A stretch of DNA of 64,000 nucleotides from the NCBI RefSeq assembly GCF_023701745.1, contig NZ_JAJOZB010000001.1, positions 1,612,001 through 1,676,000 on the forward strand, in the 5' to 3' direction. Under the pieces are notes generated by a model that was given only the letters and a program-made list of their open reading frames with translations, did not search any database and was not told where the DNA came from. This DNA is from Streptomyces sp. RKAG293. Its GTDB lineage: Bacteria > Actinomycetota > Actinomycetes > Streptomycetales > Streptomycetaceae. Shown piece by piece: positions 29,640 through 52,335 of this stretch (position 1 is its first letter; each line of letters opens with the position of its first letter). The translations under genes and the position numbers were made by a program.

Positions 29640-31430
29640 ATGTCAGGCGATCGTTCCTTGCTGGTGCGCCATCGGTTGAGCCGCGACAAGCGCCGACCGT
29701 TTCTGCTCATCGCCCTGCTGACCGCGTTACTGGCGGGCCTGCTCTTCGTCGTGACGCAGCCGCCGGCCCACGCGGCGGGCGCGCTGCTCTCGCAGGGGAA
29801 GCCGGCGACGGCGTCCTCCGCCGAGAACGCCGCAACCCCCGCCGGCGCCGCCGTCGACGGCAACACCGGCACCCGCTGGTCCAGCGCGTTCGGCGACCCG
29901 CAGTGGATCCAGGTCGACCTCGGGGCCACCGCCTCGGTCAGCCGGATCGGGCTGACCTGGGAGGCGGCGTACGCCAGCGGCTTCCAGATCCAGGTCTCCG
30001 ACACCGGAACCGGCAACTGGACCACCGTGTATTCCACCACCACCGGAACCGGCGGCACCCAGACCCTCGACGTCAACGGCACCGGCCGCTACGTCCGGAT
30101 GAACGGCACCGCCCGGGCCACCGCCTACGGCTACTCCCTGTGGGAGTTCCAGGTCTACGGCGTCCTCACCCCCGGCGGCTGCGGCTCCGCCAACGCCGCG
30201 CTGAACCGTCCGGCGACCGCGTCGTCCACGGAGAACGCCGCGAGTGCGGCGAGCGCCGCGTTCGACGGCAACACCGGCACCCGCTGGTCCAGCGCGTTCA
30301 GCGACCCGCAGTGGATCCAGGTCGACCTCGGCGCGGCGCAGCAGATCTGCCAGGTCGTCCTGCAGTGGGAGGCGGCGTACGCGAGCGGCTTCCAGATCCA
30401 GGTCTCCGACACCGGAACCGGCAACTGGACCACCGTGTACTCCACCACCACCGGAACCGGCGGCACCCAGACCCTCGACGTCAACGGCACCGGCCGCTAC
30501 GTCCGGATGAACGGCACCGCCCGGGCCACCGCCTACGGCTACTCGCTGTGGGAGTTCCAGGTGCACTCCGGCTCCCCGGGCACCCCGCCCACCACTCCCC
30601 CGACGGACCCCGGTTCGTTCTGGGGCGACACCAGCACCATTCCGCCCGCGCAGAACGTCGTCATGCTGAAGATCCTCAACCGGACGAACGGCAAGTACCC
30701 GGACAGCCAGGTCTACTGGAGCTACAACGGGCAGGTCCACTCGATCGCCGACCAGCCGTACTTCGACATGCCCGTCAACTCCGCCGGGCGGATGTACTTC
30801 TACGTCGGCACGCCGAACGGCCAGTACTTCGACTTCATCGAGTTCACCGTCGGCGCGAACGTCTTCAACGGCAACACCACACGGGTCGACGCGTTCGGTC
30901 TGAAGCTCGCGATGCGGCTGCACACCCGCGACGGGTACGACGTGTCCGTCGGTGAGGACCAGGCCACCTTCGCCGAGGACCGGTCGGTCACCTTCCAGAA
31001 GTTCATCAACGAGGTGCCGGCGCAGTTCAAGGTGCTGGCGCAGTCCCAGGCCCCGTACCGGATCATCGCGCCGGGCAGCGACCCGACGTTCCGGGCCGGC
31101 GGGGTGAACGCGAACTACTACACCGCCTACGCGAACTCGGTCGGTGTCAACGCTCCCACGTCCGACGTCTTCGGCTGCGCTGGGACCCTGGCCGAGAGCC
31201 CGGGGATGTGCTCGGCGCTCAACCGGCATGTCGCCACGCTGCCGCAGTCGCAGTGGTCGGATCCCAGCCTGTACTACCAGGCGGGCCCGGCGAACTACTA
31301 CGCGAAGTTCTGGCACGACCACGGCATCAGCAAGCTGGCGTACGGCTTCCCGTACGACGACTACGCCGGCCAGTCCTCGTTCGTCTCCCACGCGAACCCG
31401 CAGTACCTGTTGGTCGCGGTGGGCTGGTAG
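29640..31430 (+). CDS. Secreted GH64-type beta-1,3-glucanase with two F5/8C (CBM32-like) domains
   Basis: 596 aa with an AGGAG site. A signal/anchor (FLLIALLTALLAGLLFVVTQ) precedes two discoidin-type F5/8C domains (about 47-173 and 183-310), a Pro/Thr linker (312-327) and a GH64-like catalytic domain (330-596). E401 and D417 in FIEFTVGANVFNG...RVDAF have the same 16-residue spacing as E89/D105 of the other GH64 gene. The F5/8C domains should tether the enzyme to glycans. The two F5/8C copies are almost identical at DNA level over long stretches (for example 29981-30156 against 30388-30563), pointing to recent duplication or gene conversion. The shared operator at 29580-29591 suggests co-regulation with the GH64-GH16 pair. 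Confidence 0.88.
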   Translation: MSGDRSLLVRHRLSRDKRRPFLLIALLTALLAGLLFVVTQPPAHAAGALLSQGKPATASSAENAATPAGAAVDGNTGTRWSSAFGDPQWIQVDLGATASVSRIGLTWEAAYASGFQIQVSDTGTGNWTTVYSTTTGTGGTQTLDVNGTGRYVRMNGTARATAYGYSLWEFQVYGVLTPGGCGSANAALNRPATASSTENAASAASAAFDGNTGTRWSSAFSDPQWIQVDLGAAQQICQVVLQWEAAYASGFQIQVSDTGTGNWTTVYSTTTGTGGTQTLDVNGTGRYVRMNGTARATAYGYSLWEFQVHSGSPGTPPTTPPTDPGSFWGDTSTIPPAQNVVMLKILNRTNGKYPDSQVYWSYNGQVHSIADQPYFDMPVNSAGRMYFYVGTPNGQYFDFIEFTVGANVFNGNTTRVDAFGLKLAMRLHTRDGYDVSVGEDQATFAEDRSVTFQKFINEVPAQFKVLAQSQAPYRIIAPGSDPTFRAGGVNANYYTAYANSVGVNAPTSDVFGCAGTLAESPGMCSALNRHVATLPQSQWSDPSLYYQAGPANYYAKFWHDHGISKLAYGFPYDDYAGQSSFVSHANPQYLLVAVGW

Positions 31431-40848: not shown

Positions 40849-40971
40849 GAGAGTGCCTGCGGGAATGCGTGCGCCTCAGGTCAGAAGTGAACCGATTCGG
40901 TCACTCCTTCGAGGCTAAGCCTGCCCGCACGGCCCCGCCAATCGATCACCGGGGCCGCGACGGAGCGCGTG

Positions 40972-42579: not shown

Positions 42580-43719
42580 ATGCGACGGAGACTCACCGCC
42601 GGGGCCGCTCTCGCGGCCGCGGCGCTGCTGGCGTCGGTCATGGGCGCGGGCACCGGAACGGCCGCGGCCGACTCCCCCGCCCTCGGTACGGGCTACGGGG
42701 TGCACGACGGCCAGGTCCCGCTGACCACCACGAAGACGACCTCGGCCTATCTGCTCCAGGACCCGACACGTGGCAACACCGTCACCGTCGACGGCCGTAC
42801 CAACACCATCCTCACCGACGCGGACAACATCTGGGGCAACGGCCTGCCGGCCAATCTCCAGTCCGCGGGCGTCGACGCCCAGTTCGCCGCCGTCTCCGTG
42901 TGGGACTACTTCAAGTACTCGTTCAACCGGCTCGGGGTCAGGAACGACGGCAAGGGCGTCCGCAGCGTCGTCCACTACGGCAACCACTACACCAACGTCT
43001 TCTGGAGCGACGCCTGCGGCTGCATCAACTACGGCGACGGCTCGGACAACGCCCATCCGCTGACCACCATCGACATCGGCGCGCACGAGATCACCCACGG
43101 CATCACCTCCGCCACCGCCGGGCTCACCTACACCGGCGAGGCGGGCGCGCTCAACGAGAGCACCTCCGACATCTTCGCCACCATGGTGGAGTTCTCCGCG
43201 AACATCCCCGCCGACGTGCCGGACTACCTCATCGGCGAGAAGGCGAACCTCAACGGGAACGGCACCCCGCTGCGCTACATGGACCGGCCGTCCCGGGACG
43301 GGGTCTCACCCGACTACTGGTCGACGTCGGTCCCGAACCTCGACCCGCACGTGGCGTCGGGGATCGGCAACCACTTCTTCTTCCTGCTCGCCGAGGGCAG
43401 CGGCCCGCGGGTCATCAACGGGATCTCCTACAACAGCCCGACCGTCAACGGCTCGGTGCTGACCGGGATCGGGCAGAACACCGCGGCGGCGATCTGGTAT
43501 CGGGCGCTGACCGTGTACATGACCTCCACCACCAACTACCACGCGGCGCGGACCGCGACCCTCGCCGCGGCGCGCGACCTGTACGGGGCGGCCAGCAGCC
43601 AGTACGCGGCGGTCGGCGCCGCGTGGACCGCCGTCAACGTGGTCGGCCGCGCCGTGCCGTCGCCCGCTCACGGCGGCACGGCGCGGACCGGCCACGCCGG
43701 CGAGGTCAGGACCGGCTGA
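42580..43719 (+). CDS. Secreted M4 (thermolysin-family) metalloprotease without the usual propeptide
   Basis: 379 aa from the ATG at 42580 (AGGAAGG upstream). A signal peptide (AALAAAALLASVMGAGTGTAAA) is followed almost directly by the mature-type thermolysin domain (YGVHDGQVPLTT, SAYLLQDPTRGNTVTVDG). Zinc site: H169-E170-x-x-H173 in GAHEITHGIT with E193 in LNESTSDIFA. A C-terminal histidine lies in GIGNHFFFLLAEG. Typical secreted M4 enzymes carry an FTP/PepSY prodomain of about 200 aa, absent here. The last 14 bp overlap the convergent GH3 gene. Confidence 0.9.
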   Translation: MRRRLTAGAALAAAALLASVMGAGTGTAAADSPALGTGYGVHDGQVPLTTTKTTSAYLLQDPTRGNTVTVDGRTNTILTDADNIWGNGLPANLQSAGVDAQFAAVSVWDYFKYSFNRLGVRNDGKGVRSVVHYGNHYTNVFWSDACGCINYGDGSDNAHPLTTIDIGAHEITHGITSATAGLTYTGEAGALNESTSDIFATMVEFSANIPADVPDYLIGEKANLNGNGTPLRYMDRPSRDGVSPDYWSTSVPNLDPHVASGIGNHFFFLLAEGSGPRVINGISYNSPTVNGSVLTGIGQNTAAAIWYRALTVYMTSTTNYHAARTATLAAARDLYGAASSQYAAVGAAWTAVNVVGRAVPSPAHGGTARTGHAGEVRTG

Positions 43720-46642
43720 CGGTCCACACGAAGCCGGCCGTGTCGGTCGCCCCGGTGGCGCCGGTCGCGGTGACGGCGACGGTGCTGGTGCCCGGGGCCG
43801 TCGCGGTCCCGGAGATCACCCCGGCCGGGCTGATCGACAGGCCCTCGGGCAGCCCGGTCGCGGTGAACACCGGGCCGGACCCGGTGGACCCGGCGGATCC
43901 GGTGCCGCGGGCCGCGATGGCCAGCCGCACCGGGGTTCCGGCCCGGCTGCTCATACCGTGCGGGTTGGTCACCGTGACGCTGCCCGTGCCGGTGACGGTG
44001 CTGGTCACCGTCCTGGCCGAGAGCGGTGTGCCGACCGTCAGGGTCCCGGTCAGCGGCAGGTTGCGGGACGAGTCGCCGACCAGGATCCGGTAGTCGCCCG
44101 GGGTGGTCGTCCAGCCGGCCGTGGTGTCCGACCAGTGCGCCAGATCGTGCGCGGTGACGGTGAACTGCACCCGCCGGCTCGCCCCCGGCTGCAGCTCGAC
44201 CCGCTGGAACCCCTTGAGCTGCCGGACCGGTTCACCCGTCGCGGCCGGAGCACCGACGTAGAGCTGGGCGATCTCCGCGCCGGCGCGGCCGCCGGTGTTG
44301 GTGACGGTCGCGGAGACCGTGGCGTTGCCGCTCGCGTCCGGTGTGCCGACCTGGAGTCCGGAGAAGGCGAACGTCGTGTACGACAGCCCGAACCCGAACG
44401 GGAAGAGGGGGGTGACGTCGCCGGCGTCGTACCACCGGTAGCCGACCTTCAGCCCCTCCGAGTACTGCACCTTCCCGTCGGTGCCCGGCCACTGGGCCGC
44501 GGTGTGCGCGGGCACGTCGGCCAGGCTCGCCGGGAAGGTGACGGGCAGCTTCCCCGACGGGTTGGTGTCGCCGAACAGCAGCCGGGCGACGGAGTTCCCG
44601 ACCTCCTGCCCGGCGTACCACTCCTCCAGCACGCCCTGCACCCGGCCCAGCCACGGCATGGTGACCGCGGAGCCGGTGTTCAGGACCACCACGGTCCTGG
44701 GGTTGGCGGCGGCGACCTGTTCCACCAGTTCGTTCTGCTCGGCCGACAGGTCGATGCCCTTCAGGTCGGCGAACTCCGCCTCCTCGTACCCCACGAAGAC
44801 GACCGCCACGTCGGAGGCACGGGCCAGGGCGACCGCGGCCGCGATGTCCGTACCGTCGTTGTACTGGACGGTGGTGCCGGTGCCCGCGACCCGGTTCTGG
44901 ATCCCGGCCAGCGGCGAGACCGTGCCGGAGCTGGTGACTACGGCACTGCCGCCGCCCACGCTGCGCACGCCCGCGCCGGCGTCGGGGCCGAGCAGCGCGA
45001 TCGAGTGCGTGGACGCCGTCGACAGCGGCAGCACCCCGGTGTTCTTCAGCAGGACGCTGCCCTGTTCGGCGACCTGACGGGCGGTCGCCTGGTGGGCGGC
45101 GGTGGTGACCAGGGCCGTGGTGGATCCGGTGTGCTTCCGGTCGAAGAGGCCGAAGGCGAACATCTGGGTGAGCAGCCGGCTCACCATGGTGTCCAGCGTT
45201 GCCTGGCTGACCTGTCCGTTGGCGACCGCCTGGGCGAGGTAGTTCGAGAAGTAGTACCCGCCGGGCATCTCCACCGTCATGCCGCTGTTCGCGGACTCCA
45301 CGGTGGAGTGCGTCGCGCCCCAGTCGCTGGTGACGAATCCGCCGAAGTCCGCCTGCTGGTAGAGGGCGGTGTTCAGCAGATACGGGTGCTGGCAGTCGTA
45401 GGTGCCGTTGACGGTGCTGTAGCCGCACATCACCGACGCCGCCGCGCCCTTGCTGACCGCGGTCTGGAACCCGGGCAGGTAGATCTCCTGCAGGGTGCGG
45501 GTGTCGACGACCGCGTTGTCCTTCGGCCCGTTGCGGTTGGTCTCCTGGTTGTAGACCGCCACATGCTTGGCCTGCGCCATGACGCCCTGGCTCTGGATGC
45601 CCTGGATGTTGGCGACGGCCATCTCGCCGGACAGGTAGGGGTCCTCGCTGTAGCTCTCGAAGGCCCGGCCCCAGCGCGGGTCGCGCACGATGTTGAGCGT
45701 CGGGCCGAGCGCCACATCGGCGCCCTTGCCCGCGAACTCGTTCCCGGCGACGGCGCCGTACTGGTGCTGCAGCGCGGTGTCCCAGCCGGCCGCGGCCGAC
45801 ACGGGCGCGGGCAGCTGGGTCACCCCGGAGAAAGCGTCGCCCACCCCGCCGGGGCCGTCGTGGAAGCCCATCGAGGGGATGCACAGGGACGGGATCGCGG
45901 CGAGGTTCCCGACGTACGGCGTGGTGTTGCCGGTGCCGTGCACCATCTGGATCTTCTGGGCCTGTGTCATCTGCGCCATGAGCCGCGTGACGCGCTCGGC
46001 CACGGGTGCGCTGGACCCCGACCAGGGGCAGCTGCCGTCGCCGCCGGTCGCCGGGCTGCTGGTGCCGCCGGGGGTGAGGACGCTGAACTCCCAGAGCGAA
46101 TAGCCCCAGGAGGTGGCGCGCTGGATGCCGGTCAGCCGTACGTAGCGGCCGGTGCCGTTCAGCGCCACCGTCTCGATGCCGCCCTGGCCCGCAGTGGTGG
46201 AGTAGACGGTGGTCCAGTCGGTGCCGTCGTCGGAGACCTGGATCCGGTACGCCCTCGCGTACGCGTTCTCCCAGGCCAGCTGGACTCCGCAGACCGGACG
46301 GCTGGAGCCGAGGTCGACCTGCAGCCACTGCGGATCGGCGGCGGCGCTGGACCAGCGGGTGCCCGCGTTGCCGTCGAACGCCGCCGCTGCCGGGGTGTCG
46401 GACCGTTCGGTCGACGAGGCGGTGGCGGGCCGGTTCAGCGCCGCTGTCGTGATCCCGCAGGGGACGGGGTCGGAGCCCGGCGCGGCCTGCGCCGCCGATC
46501 CCGCCACCGCGGGCGTCAGACTCGCCGACAGGGCCGCCACGAGCAGGACGGCGAGGTGCCGCGGGCGTCCGCGACGGGTCCGGGGACGGGTTCCGCGGCG
46601 GGTGGCGCCGCGCCGTAGGGAGAAGTGGGGAGTGCCTGGCAC
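43706..46642 (-). CDS. Secreted GH3 beta-glucosidase with N-terminal F5/8C domain
   Basis: 978 aa. A long signal peptide (arginine-rich, then HLAVLLVAALSASLTPAVAG) precedes an F5/8C domain (about 65-190) similar in sequence to those of the GH64 gene at 29640. The GH3 N-terminal barrel spans about 215-490 with nucleophile D440 in FGGFVTSDWGATHS, followed by the GH3 C-terminal domain (about 520-720), a fibronectin type III-like domain (about 770-840) and a C-terminal putative Ig-like domain (about 875-975, FTATGLPEGLSISPAGVISG). Likely releases glucose from beta-glucan oligosaccharides. It extends the beta-glucan theme of the window, but its upstream region lacks the GAGAGCGCTCTC palindrome. 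Confidence 0.93.
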   Translation of the reverse strand: MPGTPHFSLRRGATRRGTRPRTRRGRPRHLAVLLVAALSASLTPAVAGSAAQAAPGSDPVPCGITTAALNRPATASSTERSDTPAAAAFDGNAGTRWSSAAADPQWLQVDLGSSRPVCGVQLAWENAYARAYRIQVSDDGTDWTTVYSTTAGQGGIETVALNGTGRYVRLTGIQRATSWGYSLWEFSVLTPGGTSSPATGGDGSCPWSGSSAPVAERVTRLMAQMTQAQKIQMVHGTGNTTPYVGNLAAIPSLCIPSMGFHDGPGGVGDAFSGVTQLPAPVSAAAGWDTALQHQYGAVAGNEFAGKGADVALGPTLNIVRDPRWGRAFESYSEDPYLSGEMAVANIQGIQSQGVMAQAKHVAVYNQETNRNGPKDNAVVDTRTLQEIYLPGFQTAVSKGAAASVMCGYSTVNGTYDCQHPYLLNTALYQQADFGGFVTSDWGATHSTVESANSGMTVEMPGGYYFSNYLAQAVANGQVSQATLDTMVSRLLTQMFAFGLFDRKHTGSTTALVTTAAHQATARQVAEQGSVLLKNTGVLPLSTASTHSIALLGPDAGAGVRSVGGGSAVVTSSGTVSPLAGIQNRVAGTGTTVQYNDGTDIAAAVALARASDVAVVFVGYEEAEFADLKGIDLSAEQNELVEQVAAANPRTVVVLNTGSAVTMPWLGRVQGVLEEWYAGQEVGNSVARLLFGDTNPSGKLPVTFPASLADVPAHTAAQWPGTDGKVQYSEGLKVGYRWYDAGDVTPLFPFGFGLSYTTFAFSGLQVGTPDASGNATVSATVTNTGGRAGAEIAQLYVGAPAATGEPVRQLKGFQRVELQPGASRRVQFTVTAHDLAHWSDTTAGWTTTPGDYRILVGDSSRNLPLTGTLTVGTPLSARTVTSTVTGTGSVTVTNPHGMSSRAGTPVRLAIAARGTGSAGSTGSGPVFTATGLPEGLSISPAGVISGTATAPGTSTVAVTATGATGATDTAGFVWTVSRS

Positions 46643-46882: not shown

Positions 46883-48247
46883 TCAGTCGCCGGCCCGCGG
46901 CAGCGCCGGGAGCCGGGGCTCGCGCAGCCACGCGGTGAACAGGGCGTCCAGCGGGCGCGGGGTGTACTCCTGCGCGAGGGCGGTGAACTGCTCGGTGGTG
47001 ACGGTGCGGTGGCGGTGCTGCGACGTCCAGGTGCGCAGCAGCGCGAAGAACGCGGTGTCGCCCATGGTCGTCCGCAGTGCGTGCAGCGTGAGCGCGCCGC
47101 GCTTGTAGAGCCGGTCGTCGAACATCCGCCGTACGCCCGGGTCGGCGAGCCGCAGATCCTGCGGCAGTCCGGCGAGCCGGGTGTGCGCGCGGGTGGCCAG
47201 CACGCTGGCGGGGGCGCCGCCCGCGGCCTCCGACCACAGCCATTCGGCGTAGCAGGCGAAGCCCTCGTTCAGCCAGATGTGACGCCAGTCGGCGAGGGTG
47301 AGGCTGTTGCCGAACCACTGGTGGGCCAGCTCATGGGCCACCAGGCGCTCGAAGCCGCGCCGGCCGTCGACGTGGTTGGCGCCGAAGACCGACAGGGCCT
47401 GCGCCTCGACCGGCACCTCCAGCTCCTCGTCGACCACGACCACCGCGTAGTCGTCGAAGGGGTACGGCCCGAAGAGGTCCTGGAACAGCTCCATCATCTC
47501 CGGCTGGCGGCCGAAGTCGTGGGCGAACGGGGCGAGCAGGGCGACCGGGACGGCCGCGGGCTGCGCGATCGGGCCGCCGAGGTGCTCCACCAGCTCGTAG
47601 GGGCCGATCTGGACGCTGGCGAGATAGCTGGCCATCGGCGCCCGCTGCTCGTAGACCCAGGTCGTGGTGGAACCGCCGATGGTGCACGACTCCAGGGTGC
47701 CGTTGGCGAGCACCGTGCACACCGTCGGCGCCGTCACCGTGATGCGGTAGACGGCCTTGTCCGACGGGTGGTCGTTGCAGGGGAACCAGGAGGGCGCGCC
47801 GATCGGCTGGGCGGCCACCAGCGCGCCGTACTCCAGCGGCTCCCAGCCCAGGTCGCCCCAGTAGCGGCTGCGGATCGGCCGCGGGGTGCCGACGTAGCGC
47901 ACCTCGACGGTGAAGGGCGTGCCTGCGGGCAGTTCACGGGCGGGGCGCACCCGCAGCTTCCCGGCGCGGTGGGTGTAGCGGGCGGGCCGCTTGCCGTCCA
48001 CCAGGACCCGGTCGATCCGGAACGCTCCGAGGTCGAGGCTGAACTCGGAGAGCGCGTGCTCGGTGACCGCGGAGATCCGGGCCCGGCCGGACAGCCGGTC
48101 GGCGCTCGGCCGGAAGTCCAGCTCCAGGTCGTAGCGCACCGTGCGGTAGCCGCCGTTGCCGTGCTCGGGCAGGTACGAATCGGTGGAGACGGCCGCCCCG
48201 GGCCTGGCCGGGGCGGCCGCACGGCCGCCCCCCGGTGCCTTGTTCAC
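46883..48247 (-). CDS. M1-family zinc aminopeptidase coupled to the Pls-like NRPS (Pld-like)
   Basis: About 454 aa from the GTG at 48247, overlapping the NRPS stop by one base (TAGTG). It has an N-terminal beta domain (35-230) and a gluzincin domain with HELAHQWFGN (H305, E306, H309) and E328 in WLNEGFACYAEW. The usual GAMEN exopeptidase motif is replaced by VPVEAQALSV, keeping the glutamate. No signal peptide. It is shorter than PepN (about 860 aa), lacking the C-terminal helical domains. From memory, epsilon-poly-lysine producers carry an M1 aminopeptidase degrading enzyme beside pls; by position this gene is a candidate for that role, trimming or detoxifying the NRPS product. A general peptidase role is the alternative. 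Confidence 0.9.
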   Translation of the reverse strand: MNKAPGGGRAAAPARPGAAVSTDSYLPEHGNGGYRTVRYDLELDFRPSADRLSGRARISAVTEHALSEFSLDLGAFRIDRVLVDGKRPARYTHRAGKLRVRPARELPAGTPFTVEVRYVGTPRPIRSRYWGDLGWEPLEYGALVAAQPIGAPSWFPCNDHPSDKAVYRITVTAPTVCTVLANGTLESCTIGGSTTTWVYEQRAPMASYLASVQIGPYELVEHLGGPIAQPAAVPVALLAPFAHDFGRQPEMMELFQDLFGPYPFDDYAVVVVDEELEVPVEAQALSVFGANHVDGRRGFERLVAHELAHQWFGNSLTLADWRHIWLNEGFACYAEWLWSEAAGGAPASVLATRAHTRLAGLPQDLRLADPGVRRMFDDRLYKRGALTLHALRTTMGDTAFFALLRTWTSQHRHRTVTTEQFTALAQEYTPRPLDALFTAWLREPRLPALPRAGD

Positions 48248-51200
48248 TAACTGCGGGTCCCCTCTGCGTGCCGGTCGGTGTGCCAGGCGGCGATCGGGTT
48301 GCCGAGCCAGCGGGTGCCCTCGGGCACCGATTCGCCGCGCATGACGAGCGACGCGGGACCGATGGTGGTGCGCGGCCCGACGGTCGCGCCGGGGAGCACG
48401 ATGCCATGCGGACCCAGGGTTGAACCATCCCCCAGCGTGACCGTGTCCATGCGCATGATCCGGTCGTGGAACAGATGGGTCTGCACCACGCAGCCCCGGT
48501 TGACGGTGGCCCCGGCGCCGACCCGCACGAGGTCGGCCTCCGGCAGCCAGTACGTCTCGCACCAGGCGCCGCGTCCGATCCGCGCGCCGAGCGTGCGCAG
48601 CCACAGGTTCATCAGCGGGGTGCCGGGGACCGATCCCACCAGCCACGGCACGGCGAGCACCTCGACGAAGGTGTCCGCGAGCTCGTTGCGCCACACGAAC
48701 GAGCTCCACAGCGGATGCTCGACCGTCCGGAACCTGCCGACCAGCAGCCACTTGGCCGCGGCGGCGACCACGCACGCCAGCAGACCCGCGGCCGCCATCA
48801 GCAGACCGCCGCACAGGGCGGCGGCGGCGAGTCCCGCCGTGCTCACCAGGGCCTCGAACGCGCCCACGAACAGGACCGCGAGGGCGACGGTGCACATGAC
48901 CGGGACGACTCGGCACACCTCGACGGCGGCGCGCGCCACCATCAGGGCGCGGGGCGGGTCGTAGGTGCGGCTCTGGTCGCCGGCCTCGGCGGCCCGGGGC
49001 AGCTTCATCGGCGGCATGCCCAGCCAGGAGCTGCCCGCCTTGGCGCCCTTCGGCGTCGAGGACAGGACACCGACCAGGCCGTTCTTCGGTACCGAGCGGC
49101 CGGGCGCGGTCATCCCGGAGTTGCCCAGGAACGCCCGCTTGCCGACCCGGGCGGCGGCGATGCGCATCCACCCGCCGCCCAGCTCGTAGGTGGCGACCAT
49201 CGTGTCGTCGGCGAGGAACGCGCCGTCGCCGACCGTGGTCATCGCGGGCAGCGCCAGGACGGTCGACGCCTCGACGCGCCGCCCGACCTTCATGCCCAGG
49301 GCGCGCAGCCACACCGGGGTGAAGAGGCTCGCGTACAGCGGGAAGAGCACGACGCGGGCGGTGTTCATCAGCCGCTCGGTGGCCCAGGCCCGCCAGGCGA
49401 CGCCGCTGTGCACGGCGTGATATCCCTCGCGCAGTCCGGTGCCCAGCGCCCTGACCAGGACCAGGACGAGCAGCGCGTAGGTGGCCAGCGAGACGACCGT
49501 GGCGAGCGGTACGGCGATCAGCGCGGCGGCGAGCACGTCGCCGGGCGCGGACTCGCCGCGGACGAAGAGCAGCAGCGTCAGCAGTCCTGGCAGCGCCGCG
49601 AGCGCGGGCAGCAGGCCCAGCGCGGTGGAGGTGAGGCCGTAGACCAGGGACCACCCACGGGTGCGCGGCGGGCGGCTGCCCGGCCAGCGGTGGGCGGCCT
49701 TGCCGGAGCGGGCCGCGGGAACGCCCGACCAGCGCTGGCCGGCCGGTACCGCCCCGGTCACTCCGGAGCCCGGCGCGATCTCGGCGCGCTTGCCGACGCG
49801 GGCACCGGGGAACAGGGTGCTGCGCGCGCCGACCGTGGCCGCCGCGCCGATCCGGATCTTGCCGATGTGCAGCAGGTCGCCGTCGAGCCAGTGGCCGGAC
49901 AGGTCCACCTCGGGTTCGACGGCGCAGCCCTTGCCGAGCCGCAGCATCCCGGTGACGGGCGGCAGCGAGTGCAGATCGGCGTCCGCGCCGATCCGCGCGC
50001 CGAGCGCCCGGGCGTAGTGGGTGATCCAGGTGCCGGTCAGCCGGTTGGCGCCGACGCGCTCGGCGAGGCGTTCCGCGGTCCACAGCCGCAGGTGGACGCT
50101 GCCGCCGCGCGGATAGGTACCGGGCCGGACCCCGCGCAGCAGCAGCCGCGCGCCGCCGGCCGCGACGGCGACCCGGCCGGCCGAGCTGACGCACAGCAGC
50201 CAGCCCAGCGCCACCCACCACCAGGACACGGCGGGCGCCCACGGGAAGTCCCCGTACCGGGCGAGCACGTTGTTCAGGGCGGCGACGCCCACGGCCCAGC
50301 GCAGCCCCGAGATCGTCAGCAGCGGGACCATCAGCGCCAGTTGTACGGCGCCGGCGCGCCGCGGGGTGGGCCGTACGGTCCGCACGGCGCTCTCGCGGGC
50401 GTCCGACGCCTCCAGGACGCGGGCCAGCGCGCCCAGCGACGGGTTCTGGTAGATGTCGCTGACGGAGACGTTGGGGAAGCGCGCACGGATGAGGGCGACC
50501 AGGCGGGCGGCCCCGAGGCTGCTGCCGCCGATCGCGAAGAACTCGGCGTCGGCGGTGCCGACGGAGGTGCCGAGGATCTCAGCCCACTGTTCCGCGAGCC
50601 ACCCCTCGGTGCCTTCCAGCGGGCTCTCCTGCCCGGAGGTGTCCACGGAGGGCAGCGGCCAGGGCAGCGCGGCCCGGTCGACCTTGCCGGAGGTCCGGGT
50701 GGGCAGCGTGTCGACCACCGCGATGAGCGGCACGAGCGAGGCGGGCAGCGCCTCGCGCAGCCGGCGCAGCGCGTCGACGGGGTCGAACACACCACTGACG
50801 ACGCCCACTTCGGCCTCGTCGGTCCGGGCCTCGTCGGTCCGGGCTTCGTCGGTCCGGGCTTCGTCGGTCCGGGCTTCAGCCGCCTGGGCCTGGTCGGCCC
50901 GCGCTTCGCCGTCGGGGGTCTCGTCGCCGGCCGGGGTGTCGGCGGCCGTGTCCTGTGCCGCGCTCACCACATAGCCGACGAGGATCTGGTTGCCGCCCCG
51001 GGTGGTGCGGACGGCGGCCGCGGCACCCGCGACGTTCGGCAGCGCCTGCAGCGCCGCGTCGACCTCGCCGAGTTCGATCCGGCGGCCGCCCAGTTTGATC
51101 TGCTCGTCCGCCCTGCCGACGAACAACAGCCCTTCGGCGTCGGCACGGACCAGGTCACCGCTGCGGTAGGCGCGCTCCCAGCCCAGCGAGGGCAGCGGCG

Positions 51201-52335
51201 CGTACTTCTCGGCGTCCTTGTCCGCGTCGAGGTAACGGGCCAGCCCGACCCCGCCGATGACGAGTTCGCCGACCTCGCCCATGGGCACGAGCTCGCCCCG
51301 CGCGTCCACGACCGCCAGGTCCCAGCCGTCGAGCGGCAGCCCGATCCTGACCGGGCCCTCGCCGGTGAGCTGAGCGGCGCAGGCGACGACGGTGGCCTCG
51401 GTGGGACCGTAGGTGTTCCACACCTCGCGGCCCTCGACGGCCATCCGCTCGGCGAGTTCGGGCGGGCACGCCTCGCCGCCGAAGATCAGCAGCCGGACGT
51501 CGTCGAGCGCTTCCGACGGCCACAGCGCCGCCAGGGTCGGCACCGTCGACACGACCGTGATGCGCTGTTCGACCAGCCATGGGCCCAGGTCGAGCCCGGT
51601 GCGGACCAGAGACCGGGGGGCGGCGACGAGGCAGGCGCCGTACCGCCAGGCCAGCCACATCTCCTCGCAGGAGGCGTCGAAGGCGACCGACAGCCCGGCC
51701 AGCACCCGGTCCCCGGGGCCGATGGGCTCCTCGGTGAGGAAGAGCCCGGCCTCGGCGTCCACGAACGCCGCGGCGCTGCGGTGGGTGACGGCAACGCCCT
51801 TGGGCTTGCCGGTCGATCCCGAGGTGAAGATGATCCAGGCGTCGTCGTCGGGTCCGGGCCGCCGGCCCACGACGCCGTGCGGGGTACCGCAGGGCCGGAT
51901 CTCGCGGTGCGCCCCGATGACGGCGCTCACTCCCGCTTCGGAGAAGACCAACTCGGCGCGTTCTTCGGGGTCTTCGGCGTCCACCGGCACATAGGCGGCG
52001 CCTGCCGCCAGCACCGCGAGGATCGAGATGTACAGGTCGTTGGTGCCGGACGGCACCCGGATGCCGACCCGGTCGCCGGCGCCGATGCCCGCCGCCGCGA
52101 GCCGCAGCCGCAGCGCCTCGGTCTCGGCTGCCAGGGCGCGGTAGCTCAGCGCCGTGGAACCGTCGTCGACGGCTGCGCCGTTCGGGTGTCTTCGGGTGGT
52201 CTCGGCGAGGATGTCGAGCAGGGTCCGCTCGGGCGCGGGACCGTTCCCGGAGAAGACCGCGCGGGGCGGTGCCAGGAGCTCCGCGGGGTCGATCAGTGTG
52301 TCGAGCGTCAGCTCGGGTGCCTCTGCCAGCGTCAT
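48247..52335 (-). CDS. Pls/PosA-type membrane NRPS, candidate homopoly(amino acid) synthetase
   Basis: 1362 aa (S. albulus Pls is about 1320). Adenylation domain 25-560 with TSGSTGKPKG (171-180), NTYGPTE (307-313), YRSGDL and K551 in TSGK. PCP about 575-650 with S606 in GGSSLGA. Then several membrane spans (for example LMVPLLTISGLRWAVGVAAL) alternating with hexapeptide-repeat, left-handed beta-helix acyltransferase-like modules to the C-terminus, the arrangement of the Pls terminal region. By hand alignment to GrsA the substrate code is D220, A221, E224, S263, I284, G286, T308, V316, V317, K551, close to the lysine code I recall for bacitracin synthetase. An ARTDE repeat (488-507) interrupts the A-domain tail. 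No condensation or thioesterase domain of ordinary type is present. Translationally coupled to the M1 peptidase. Lysine polymer is the best guess; another basic amino acid is possible. Confidence 0.85.
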   Translation of the reverse strand: MTLAEAPELTLDTLIDPAELLAPPRAVFSGNGPAPERTLLDILAETTRRHPNGAAVDDGSTALSYRALAAETEALRLRLAAAGIGAGDRVGIRVPSGTNDLYISILAVLAAGAAYVPVDAEDPEERAELVFSEAGVSAVIGAHREIRPCGTPHGVVGRRPGPDDDAWIIFTSGSTGKPKGVAVTHRSAAAFVDAEAGLFLTEEPIGPGDRVLAGLSVAFDASCEEMWLAWRYGACLVAAPRSLVRTGLDLGPWLVEQRITVVSTVPTLAALWPSEALDDVRLLIFGGEACPPELAERMAVEGREVWNTYGPTEATVVACAAQLTGEGPVRIGLPLDGWDLAVVDARGELVPMGEVGELVIGGVGLARYLDADKDAEKYAPLPSLGWERAYRSGDLVRADAEGLLFVGRADEQIKLGGRRIELGEVDAALQALPNVAGAAAAVRTTRGGNQILVGYVVSAAQDTAADTPAGDETPDGEARADQAQAAEARTDEARTDEARTDEARTDEAEVGVVSGVFDPVDALRRLREALPASLVPLIAVVDTLPTRTSGKVDRAALPWPLPSVDTSGQESPLEGTEGWLAEQWAEILGTSVGTADAEFFAIGGSSLGAARLVALIRARFPNVSVSDIYQNPSLGALARVLEASDARESAVRTVRPTPRRAGAVQLALMVPLLTISGLRWAVGVAALNNVLARYGDFPWAPAVSWWWVALGWLLCVSSAGRVAVAAGGARLLLRGVRPGTYPRGGSVHLRLWTAERLAERVGANRLTGTWITHYARALGARIGADADLHSLPPVTGMLRLGKGCAVEPEVDLSGHWLDGDLLHIGKIRIGAAATVGARSTLFPGARVGKRAEIAPGSGVTGAVPAGQRWSGVPAARSGKAAHRWPGSRPPRTRGWSLVYGLTSTALGLLPALAALPGLLTLLLFVRGESAPGDVLAAALIAVPLATVVSLATYALLVLVLVRALGTGLREGYHAVHSGVAWRAWATERLMNTARVVLFPLYASLFTPVWLRALGMKVGRRVEASTVLALPAMTTVGDGAFLADDTMVATYELGGGWMRIAAARVGKRAFLGNSGMTAPGRSVPKNGLVGVLSSTPKGAKAGSSWLGMPPMKLPRAAEAGDQSRTYDPPRALMVARAAVEVCRVVPVMCTVALAVLFVGAFEALVSTAGLAAAALCGGLLMAAAGLLACVVAAAAKWLLVGRFRTVEHPLWSSFVWRNELADTFVEVLAVPWLVGSVPGTPLMNLWLRTLGARIGRGAWCETYWLPEADLVRVGAGATVNRGCVVQTHLFHDRIMRMDTVTLGDGSTLGPHGIVLPGATVGPRTTIGPASLVMRGESVPEGTRWLGNPIAAWHTDRHAEGTRS
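50816..50875 (-). repeat. Four 15-bp tandem units inside the NRPS gene
   Basis: Four in-frame units of TCGTCGGTCCGGGCY encode ARTDE repeats in a linker between adenylation core motifs, after ILVGYVV and before REALPASLVP. Probably variable in copy number among strains. Confidence 0.85.

Follow-up and report, generated by a model that had tools for sequence, protein, structure and literature searches.

A thermolysin-type (M4) metallopeptidase gene without a prodomain in Streptomyces sp. RKAG293 and the small clade to which it belongs

Secreted M4 proteases serve as textbook cases of dependence on a prodomain, both for folding and for staying silent until export, and thermolysin is itself made with a long propeptide. 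The gene described here lies in a window of 64,000 nucleotides, which is the whole stretch of Streptomyces sp. RKAG293 DNA that was analyzed. The original prediction held that it encodes an M4 enzyme in which the signal peptide runs straight into the mature thermolysin-type domain, that the FTP/PepSY propeptide is missing, and that the catalytic motif is intact. Is the prodomain really absent and, if so, how did the gene come to lack it and what kind of protein would result? The features of the gene are listed in Table 1.

Table 1. Features of the M4 gene and its 5′ region, in window coordinates
Feature	Coordinates	Strand	Basis or remark
M4 metallopeptidase gene without a prodomain, 379 aa	42580..43719	+	Same architecture in orthologues
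Likely signal peptide, residues 1-30	42580..42669	+	By eye; pLDDT <50 at residues 1-28
Peptidase_M4 (PF01447), residues 36-177	42685..43110	+	Pfam, E 7.5e-38
HEITH zinc/catalytic motif, residues 169-173	43084..43098	+	Aligned with thermolysin H142-E143-H146
Peptidase_M4_C (PF02868), residues 180-354; contains Y184, E193 (third zinc ligand) and H257	43117..43641	+	E 9.2e-48
C-terminal tail, residues 359-379	43654..43716	+	pLDDT <50
5′ leader, start codon and first signal codons	42513..42607	+	Aligns with prodomain-bearing sister L187
5′ element GCCAATTCTTGACGGGCCCCTGCCAA	42456..42481	+	Pattern drawn by eye, then scanned; kept 5′ of most clade members

The ORF begins with an ATG at 42580, with AGGAAGG immediately 5′ of it, and its stop codon occupies 43717-43719. 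Both M4 domains score above the Pfam cut-off, which places the protein in peptidase family M4; one weak M36 overlap, below the cut-off, was also found at E ≤ 1. The N-terminal domain match starts at residue 36, and in the alignment residue 34 pairs with residue 6 of mature thermolysin. Therefore, the signal peptide likely abuts the mature domain, as had been predicted. Inspection by eye showed a basic n-region, a hydrophobic core and an A-x-A, an arrangement similar to that of sister signals such as VKRKLTAGAVLSATALLAGAIQ, and no clear twin-arginine motif. The cleavage site was also read by eye, and cleavage at the likely site between AAA and DS would place the N-terminus about three residues or less from that of thermolysin. 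Export by means of the signal peptide followed by a single trim is the most likely route suggested by these features.

A frameshift or a mis-annotated start could also make a prodomain seem to be missing. The reading frame is open far upstream of the ATG (from 40891, with a listed start at 40969) because it runs antisense through the wax-ester synthase gene. Both explanations were ruled out: the corresponding frames of the orthologues L016 and L017 close 44 and 36 codons 5′ of the ATG, and the searched loci of the clade described below contain no prodomain in any frame, separate tandem M4 genes aside. The short form is also common to orthologues from separate assemblies, which speaks against a frameshift. 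The absence of the prodomain from this ORF was thus confirmed as real.

No FTP, PepSY or protealysin propeptide was listed for the protein by Pfam at E ≤ 1, a list that is incomplete above about 0.1, where the HMMER filters discard most matches. A prodomain profile seeded with 52 representative prodomain-bearing relatives, which detects 197 of the 197 prodomain-bearing proteins compared here (seeds included), did not find one in the protein either. Against the 959 six-frame segments of the 64-kb window, the same profile produced no match at E ≤ 0.1 (best E, 0.86). The whole genome has seven M4 matches and four FTP (PF07504) matches; each of the latter shares the open frame of an M4 match, and none is unattached. 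PepSY gave three matches at E ≤ 1, two of them within M4 genes. The third (L013) was considered as a separate prodomain and rejected; it is below the cut-off, its ORF reads by eye as an enolase-superfamily protein, and it is probably a chance match. In the remaining two M4 genes of the genome, L006 and L007, the PF01447 match begins only at positions 31 and 29; judged from these partial matches, they look protealysin-like. This leaves the window gene as the only M4 gene of this genome with a full N-terminal domain but without a prodomain. The FTP and PepSY domains found between signal and mature domain in the typical, although not strictly defining, architecture of secreted M4 proteins are missing from it, and the separately encoded prodomain that the original prediction suggested looking for was found neither in the window nor, as a free FTP domain, in the genome. 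Prodomain-assisted folding followed by autoprocessing cannot apply in cis to this protein.

The original prediction had allowed that prodomain-less M4 enzymes might turn out to be common. M4 genes were gathered from 216 loci, including part of the listed matches; as similarity to the window protein guided the collection, the set is not a random sample of the family. Identical mature domains, 23 fragments (among them the two protealysin-like genes, the split gene L054 and pieces truncated at locus edges), L059 and one copy in L121 were dropped, leaving 207 proteins. Some of these exclusions had resembled prodomain-less genes: a run of N masks the prodomain region of L059, the edge of the locus cuts the L121 copy, and L054 is split in two frames, with the prodomain in the other one. 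A prodomain was present in 197 of the 207 proteins and absent in 10, nine of which constitute a single clade, so in this similarity-based set the short form is not common. The nine are the window protein (L004), L015, L016, L017, L018, L019, L121, L069 and L070. All eight clade members scanned combine the M4 and M4_C domains, with neither FTP nor PepSY at E ≤ 0.01, and two have a weak M36 overlap.

The distribution of the clade was then defined by E ≤ 1e-150, the next proteins appearing at 8.1e-144 or weaker. Within the genus of the window, six of 35 genomes have a member, and the same six are those found among 394 genomes drawn across the family. The genus of G394 has members in two of 392 genomes, one of which is the genome on which that search was centred. 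Of 394 genomes drawn across the class, one has a member, the window's own. The genus, family and class draws overlap one another. Across the phylum, 11 of 149 genomes had M4 matches at E ≤ 1e-20, and 21 matches covering PF01447 from positions 1-3 sit in open frames of at least 547 aa; a long open frame is not proof of a prodomain, and the prodomain-less window gene is itself among the 21. No near match was found in phages, and in each of 91 matching plasmid records the best place had less than 60% identity. The prodomain-less clade is rare in Streptomycetaceae.

A tree of 62 mature domains, for which the bootstrap was not completely settled, places the nine proteins in a clade with 100/100 support and a long stem (0.35) that is nested among prodomain-bearing proteins; L069 and L070 fall outside a supported seven-member subclade (97/91). 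The reading frame is intact in all nine. NG86 dN/dS within the clade, a rough measure given the GC bias and the single method, is about 0.12-0.52 and overlaps the range of about 0.04-0.62 calculated for eight hand-picked pairs with a prodomain. Among eight aligned members, the C-terminal tail is present only in the window protein and a 98% identical orthologue. The best mature-domain identity of clade members to prodomain-bearing proteins is 64-67%. Among known systems, one of the closest is the Streptomyces prepro-M4 group that includes L095, L107 and L187. This group has the same metal and catalytic residues, as well as a leader and signal peptide similar to those of several clade members. 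What sets it apart from the window gene is the prodomain, which in L187 accounts for about 186 extra codons between signal and mature domain.

The leader bears on the origin of the short form. Counting from residue 35, the window leader from −169 to −75 aligns with that of L187 from −728 to −633, with small gaps at the start codon. The alignment score is 53, while the best score over 193 targets in 60 shuffles had a median of 32 and a maximum of 45. The two leaders are offset by 558-559 nt relative to the mature domain, and the start codons are located at −660 in L187 and −102 in the window gene, a difference of 186 codons, in frame. The leaders of L015, L018, L019 and L121 score 53-54 against the sister leaders (per-target null maxima 32, 50, 32 and 30), and those of L016 and L017 score 39 and 46 (maxima 35 and 37). 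The best-of-193-targets null was applied to the window gene and to L157, a protein discussed below, and the per-target null to the other leaders. The best matches of the L069 and L070 leaders (35 and 39) are L166 and L002, outside the sister group. Since these two do not match, and L016 and L017 exceed a per-target null only, the leader evidence comes mainly from five members, two of them nearly identical.

Farther upstream, the 26-letter pattern of the 5′ element, which was drawn by eye from the very sequences scanned, scores 25/26 in six of eight distinct members, 21 in L019 and 16 in L018; the last value is background, as prodomain-bearing sequences score 13-20. The clade form, GCCAAT...CCTGCCAA, has a counterpart in a listed set of prodomain-bearing genes, GGCCAAT...CCTGTCATT, located about 775-895 nt 5′ of the mature domain (by-eye pattern, score at least 14/17). 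A 5′ profile derived from the sisters matches five of the nine clade members (E 0.14-10) and no shuffled sequences. It scores the prodomain-bearing L182, L128 and L139 equally well (E 0.14-0.57), and its bearing on shared leader ancestry is supportive only. An in-frame deletion of the prodomain would explain the alignment of leader and first signal codons with those of a prodomain-bearing sister most simply; the window gene would have arisen in this way with leader and signal retained. As a separate observation, two adjacent prodomain-bearing M4 genes are found in several Streptomycetaceae genomes (e.g., L186, L190, L193, L196, L198 and L201), and these pairs have a common leader element, GGCCAAT...CCTGTC...TTGTCATGCTTC, which suggests common regulation.

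The mature domain that remains is complete. In the alignment, H169-E170-xx-H173, Y184, E193 and H257 correspond to thermolysin H142, E143, H146, Y157, E166 and H231, so that the HExxH plus distal Glu zinc site and the equivalents of Tyr157 and His231 are all present and the protein has none of the losses that mark M4 pseudoenzymes. The catalytic motif is therefore intact, as stated in the original prediction. The equivalents of thermolysin N112, D138, H142, E143, H146, Y157, E166, D170, E177, D185, E190, R203, D226, H231, D57 and D59 are identical in the window protein. Thermolysin E187 and the Ca4 residues compared are not matched, nor are they in nearly all prodomain-bearing relatives. The AlphaFold2 model has a mean pLDDT of 82.3, with a confident mature domain; pLDDT falls below 50 at the two ends (residues 1-28 and 359-379) and is moderate (60-70) in blocks at about residues 181-190 and 221-230. 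A Foldseek search with this model returned M4 structures as the top 26 hits, followed by M36, with neutral protease and thermolysin ranked first. The model thus has the thermolysin fold, although structure prediction carries no information on the folding pathway.

Thermolysin and bacillolysin (MEROPS M4) resemble the window protein in structure (best Foldseek E about 1e-27, target TM 0.86-0.88, 36-37% identity) and have the same set of zinc and catalytic residues; the 548-residue chain 5a3y aligns with it from chain residue 235. The protealysin-like M4 proteins, like the window protein, are without the long FTP/PepSY propeptide. Protealysin itself carries a propeptide of about 50 residues (PMC7311988). 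The window protein has a PF01447 match from position 2, a signal-like start and no protealysin-type propeptide at E ≤ 1, with only about 30-34 residues N-terminal to the mature domain. A survey of 31 sequences reports the FTP motif in most M4 sequences, with the exception of Erwinia and Serratia members (PMC7851659). We found no description of a secreted M4 protein without a propeptide among the papers listed, as judged by title and start of abstract; the literature covered consists largely of papers outside subscription journals.

These observations led us to favor, at a little under an even chance for the account as a whole, a pathway in which loss of the prodomain produced an exported, self-folding bare M4 enzyme that has no zymogen stage and is a slower or more selective protease. 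An ordinary Streptomyces prepro-M4 gene would have lost about 186 codons in frame, and with them the FTP/PepSY prodomain, with leader, signal peptide and mature domain surviving. The product would be exported, trimmed once by signal peptidase and freed as a bare thermolysin fold, never passing through a latent zymogen. Its mature domain would fold without a prodomain, presumably aided by the metal sites and by general extracytoplasmic folding factors, and changes in the lineage near the active site (A113V, V139I, V230P, S233A/G and others) may have yielded a slower or more selective enzyme that can be exported without an inhibitor. We infer deletion, export, self-folding and reduced or narrowed activity of the window protein from the comparisons described above. 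If the enzyme is active, its activation would have to differ, as the original prediction proposed.

The changes in the mature domain were measured at 99 columns that are at least 97% conserved in 195 prodomain-bearing proteins (the outliers L005 and L060 were omitted). Clade members depart at 10-16 of these columns, while the prodomain-bearing proteins have a median of 0, a 95th percentile of 4 and a maximum of 18. Departures do not by themselves track prodomain loss, because 17-18 departures occur in the prodomain-bearing tandem copies of L018 and L019. In thermolysin numbering and relative to the prodomain-bearing sisters, the clade changes include A113V (8/9 versus 0/197, all 197 having A113), V139I (8/9 versus 1/197), G140 (9/9; mostly A among the sisters), G163A (8/9 versus 1/197), V230P (9/9 versus 5/197, with V230 in 191/197) and S233A/G. 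The first five are close to catalytic residues in sequence, a region where changes are easier to detect because active-site columns are generally conserved. They need not all impair activity, since G163A restores thermolysin's own residue.

A lineage drifting from proteolysis toward a pseudo-M4, either weakly active or a secreted binding protein, in which the window copy still keeps its catalytic residues, would also accumulate changes beside these residues, such as A113V and V230P, and would fit the long stem. Two of the nine members have in fact lost catalytic residues: L069 (G030) has H142R and H231S, and L070 (G022) has Y157F and H231G. Both look like secreted M4 pseudoenzymes, their losses fit loss of proteolysis better than retained activity, and loss of proteolysis in the clade is for this reason a live alternative. 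However, seven of the nine, the window protein among them, retain every zinc and catalytic residue, no reading frame is broken, and the two exceptions lie outside the seven-member subclade. We regard such a drift as rather unlikely.

A different way to accommodate an intact active site is that folding of the mature domain continues to depend on a prodomain, which a paralogous M4 protein of the same cell lends in trans. Protease prodomains can act as chaperones in trans, and the genome contains four prodomain-bearing M4 genes, whose prodomains could act in this manner. The gene order around the window gene is SpoIIE-like and MFS (both identified by eye), wax-ester synthase, M4, GH3-type glycosidase, M1-like peptidase and non-ribosomal peptide synthetase (NRPS). 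This order is kept in the near relatives L015, L016 and L017 and not around L018, L019, L154, L152 or L153; L152 has weaker matches only, to SpoIIE-like (50%) and MFS (28%) proteins. In L018, L019 and L154, a divergent prodomain-bearing M4 gene lies in tandem immediately 5′ of the prodomain-less gene, on the same strand. Supply of a prodomain by an adjacent gene is accordingly possible for these three but not in the window, and supply by distant paralogues is possible. Against borrowing, the profile found no prodomain in any frame of L152 and L153, the 10-kb stretches around the G022 and G030 copies, just as it found none in the window, and the identity of the window protein to the three listed paralogues is only 51-53%. 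On this evidence we consider borrowing improbable. It is very improbable that the gene is in decay or that the open frame results from an error in sequencing or annotation, given nine distinct proteins from separate assemblies with one architecture, intact frames and similar start regions; no support for either was found beyond the fact that loss of a prodomain could by itself resemble decay.

Other genes of the window have features of their own. The NRPS (48247-52335, minus strand) belongs to the Pls/PosA family (TIGR02353, E 1.2e-233) and contains a repeated EARTDEARTDEA linker; its end is overlapped by four bases by the M1-like peptidase ORF (46883-48250), which has a sub-cut-off NCBIfam aminopeptidase N match. 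The GH3-type glycosidase (43706-46642, minus strand) and the product of 29640-31430 (plus strand) are secreted-looking proteins with a common repeated module, and in L015, L016 and L017 the region of the GH3 gene is matched by the latter at 61-66% identity.

Returning to the favored pathway of deletion and self-folding, the tenth prodomain-less protein, L157 (genome G088, L157:3904-4995), which is outside the supported clade, offers a comparison. Its zinc ligands are retained, as are its counterparts of E143, Y157 and H231, and Pro replaces the conserved Asp that shortly precedes H231. Among the 99 columns, L157 departs at 12. Most clade members are changed at a set of 11 columns, and five of these (76, 93, 120, 230 and 233) are changed in L157 as well, to residues that also occur in the clade. 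The hypergeometric p value of this overlap is 0.0035, calculated post hoc, and prodomain-bearing controls with 8-18 changes overlap at one or two columns. The initial trees put L157 apart from the clade. The reading of two independent losses that these trees suggest is weakened by AU tests, which did not reject joining L157 to the clade (p 0.575, 0.706 and 0.629, the last without the five columns); the tree with L157 inside the clade scores better by 5.9, 16.1 and 10.8 log units (the last, again, without the five columns). By identity, L157 resembles the group of L128, L139 and L182 (63.7% to L128 versus 54.6-57.2% to the clade). It also does so, weakly, by its leader, which best matches L182 and L139 and not the sisters of the clade, with a score of 45 that is within the shuffle range (maximum 53). 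L157 may represent a second, separate prodomain loss.

A prodomain-less lineage with an intact active site and reading frame constitutes a natural experiment on the rule that M4 proteases need a prodomain. It is possible, although we hold it only tentatively, that a lineage with the thermolysin fold escaped the need for both chaperone and zymogen by a deletion combined with repeatable changes in the mature domain. If this is true, the five columns common to L157 and the clade would be a signature of prodomain-independent folding or of tolerating an absent inhibitor. Comparison of the clade with its prodomain-bearing sisters provides a short list of candidate residues for prodomain independence, which could help to produce thermolysin-type enzymes directly in their mature form.
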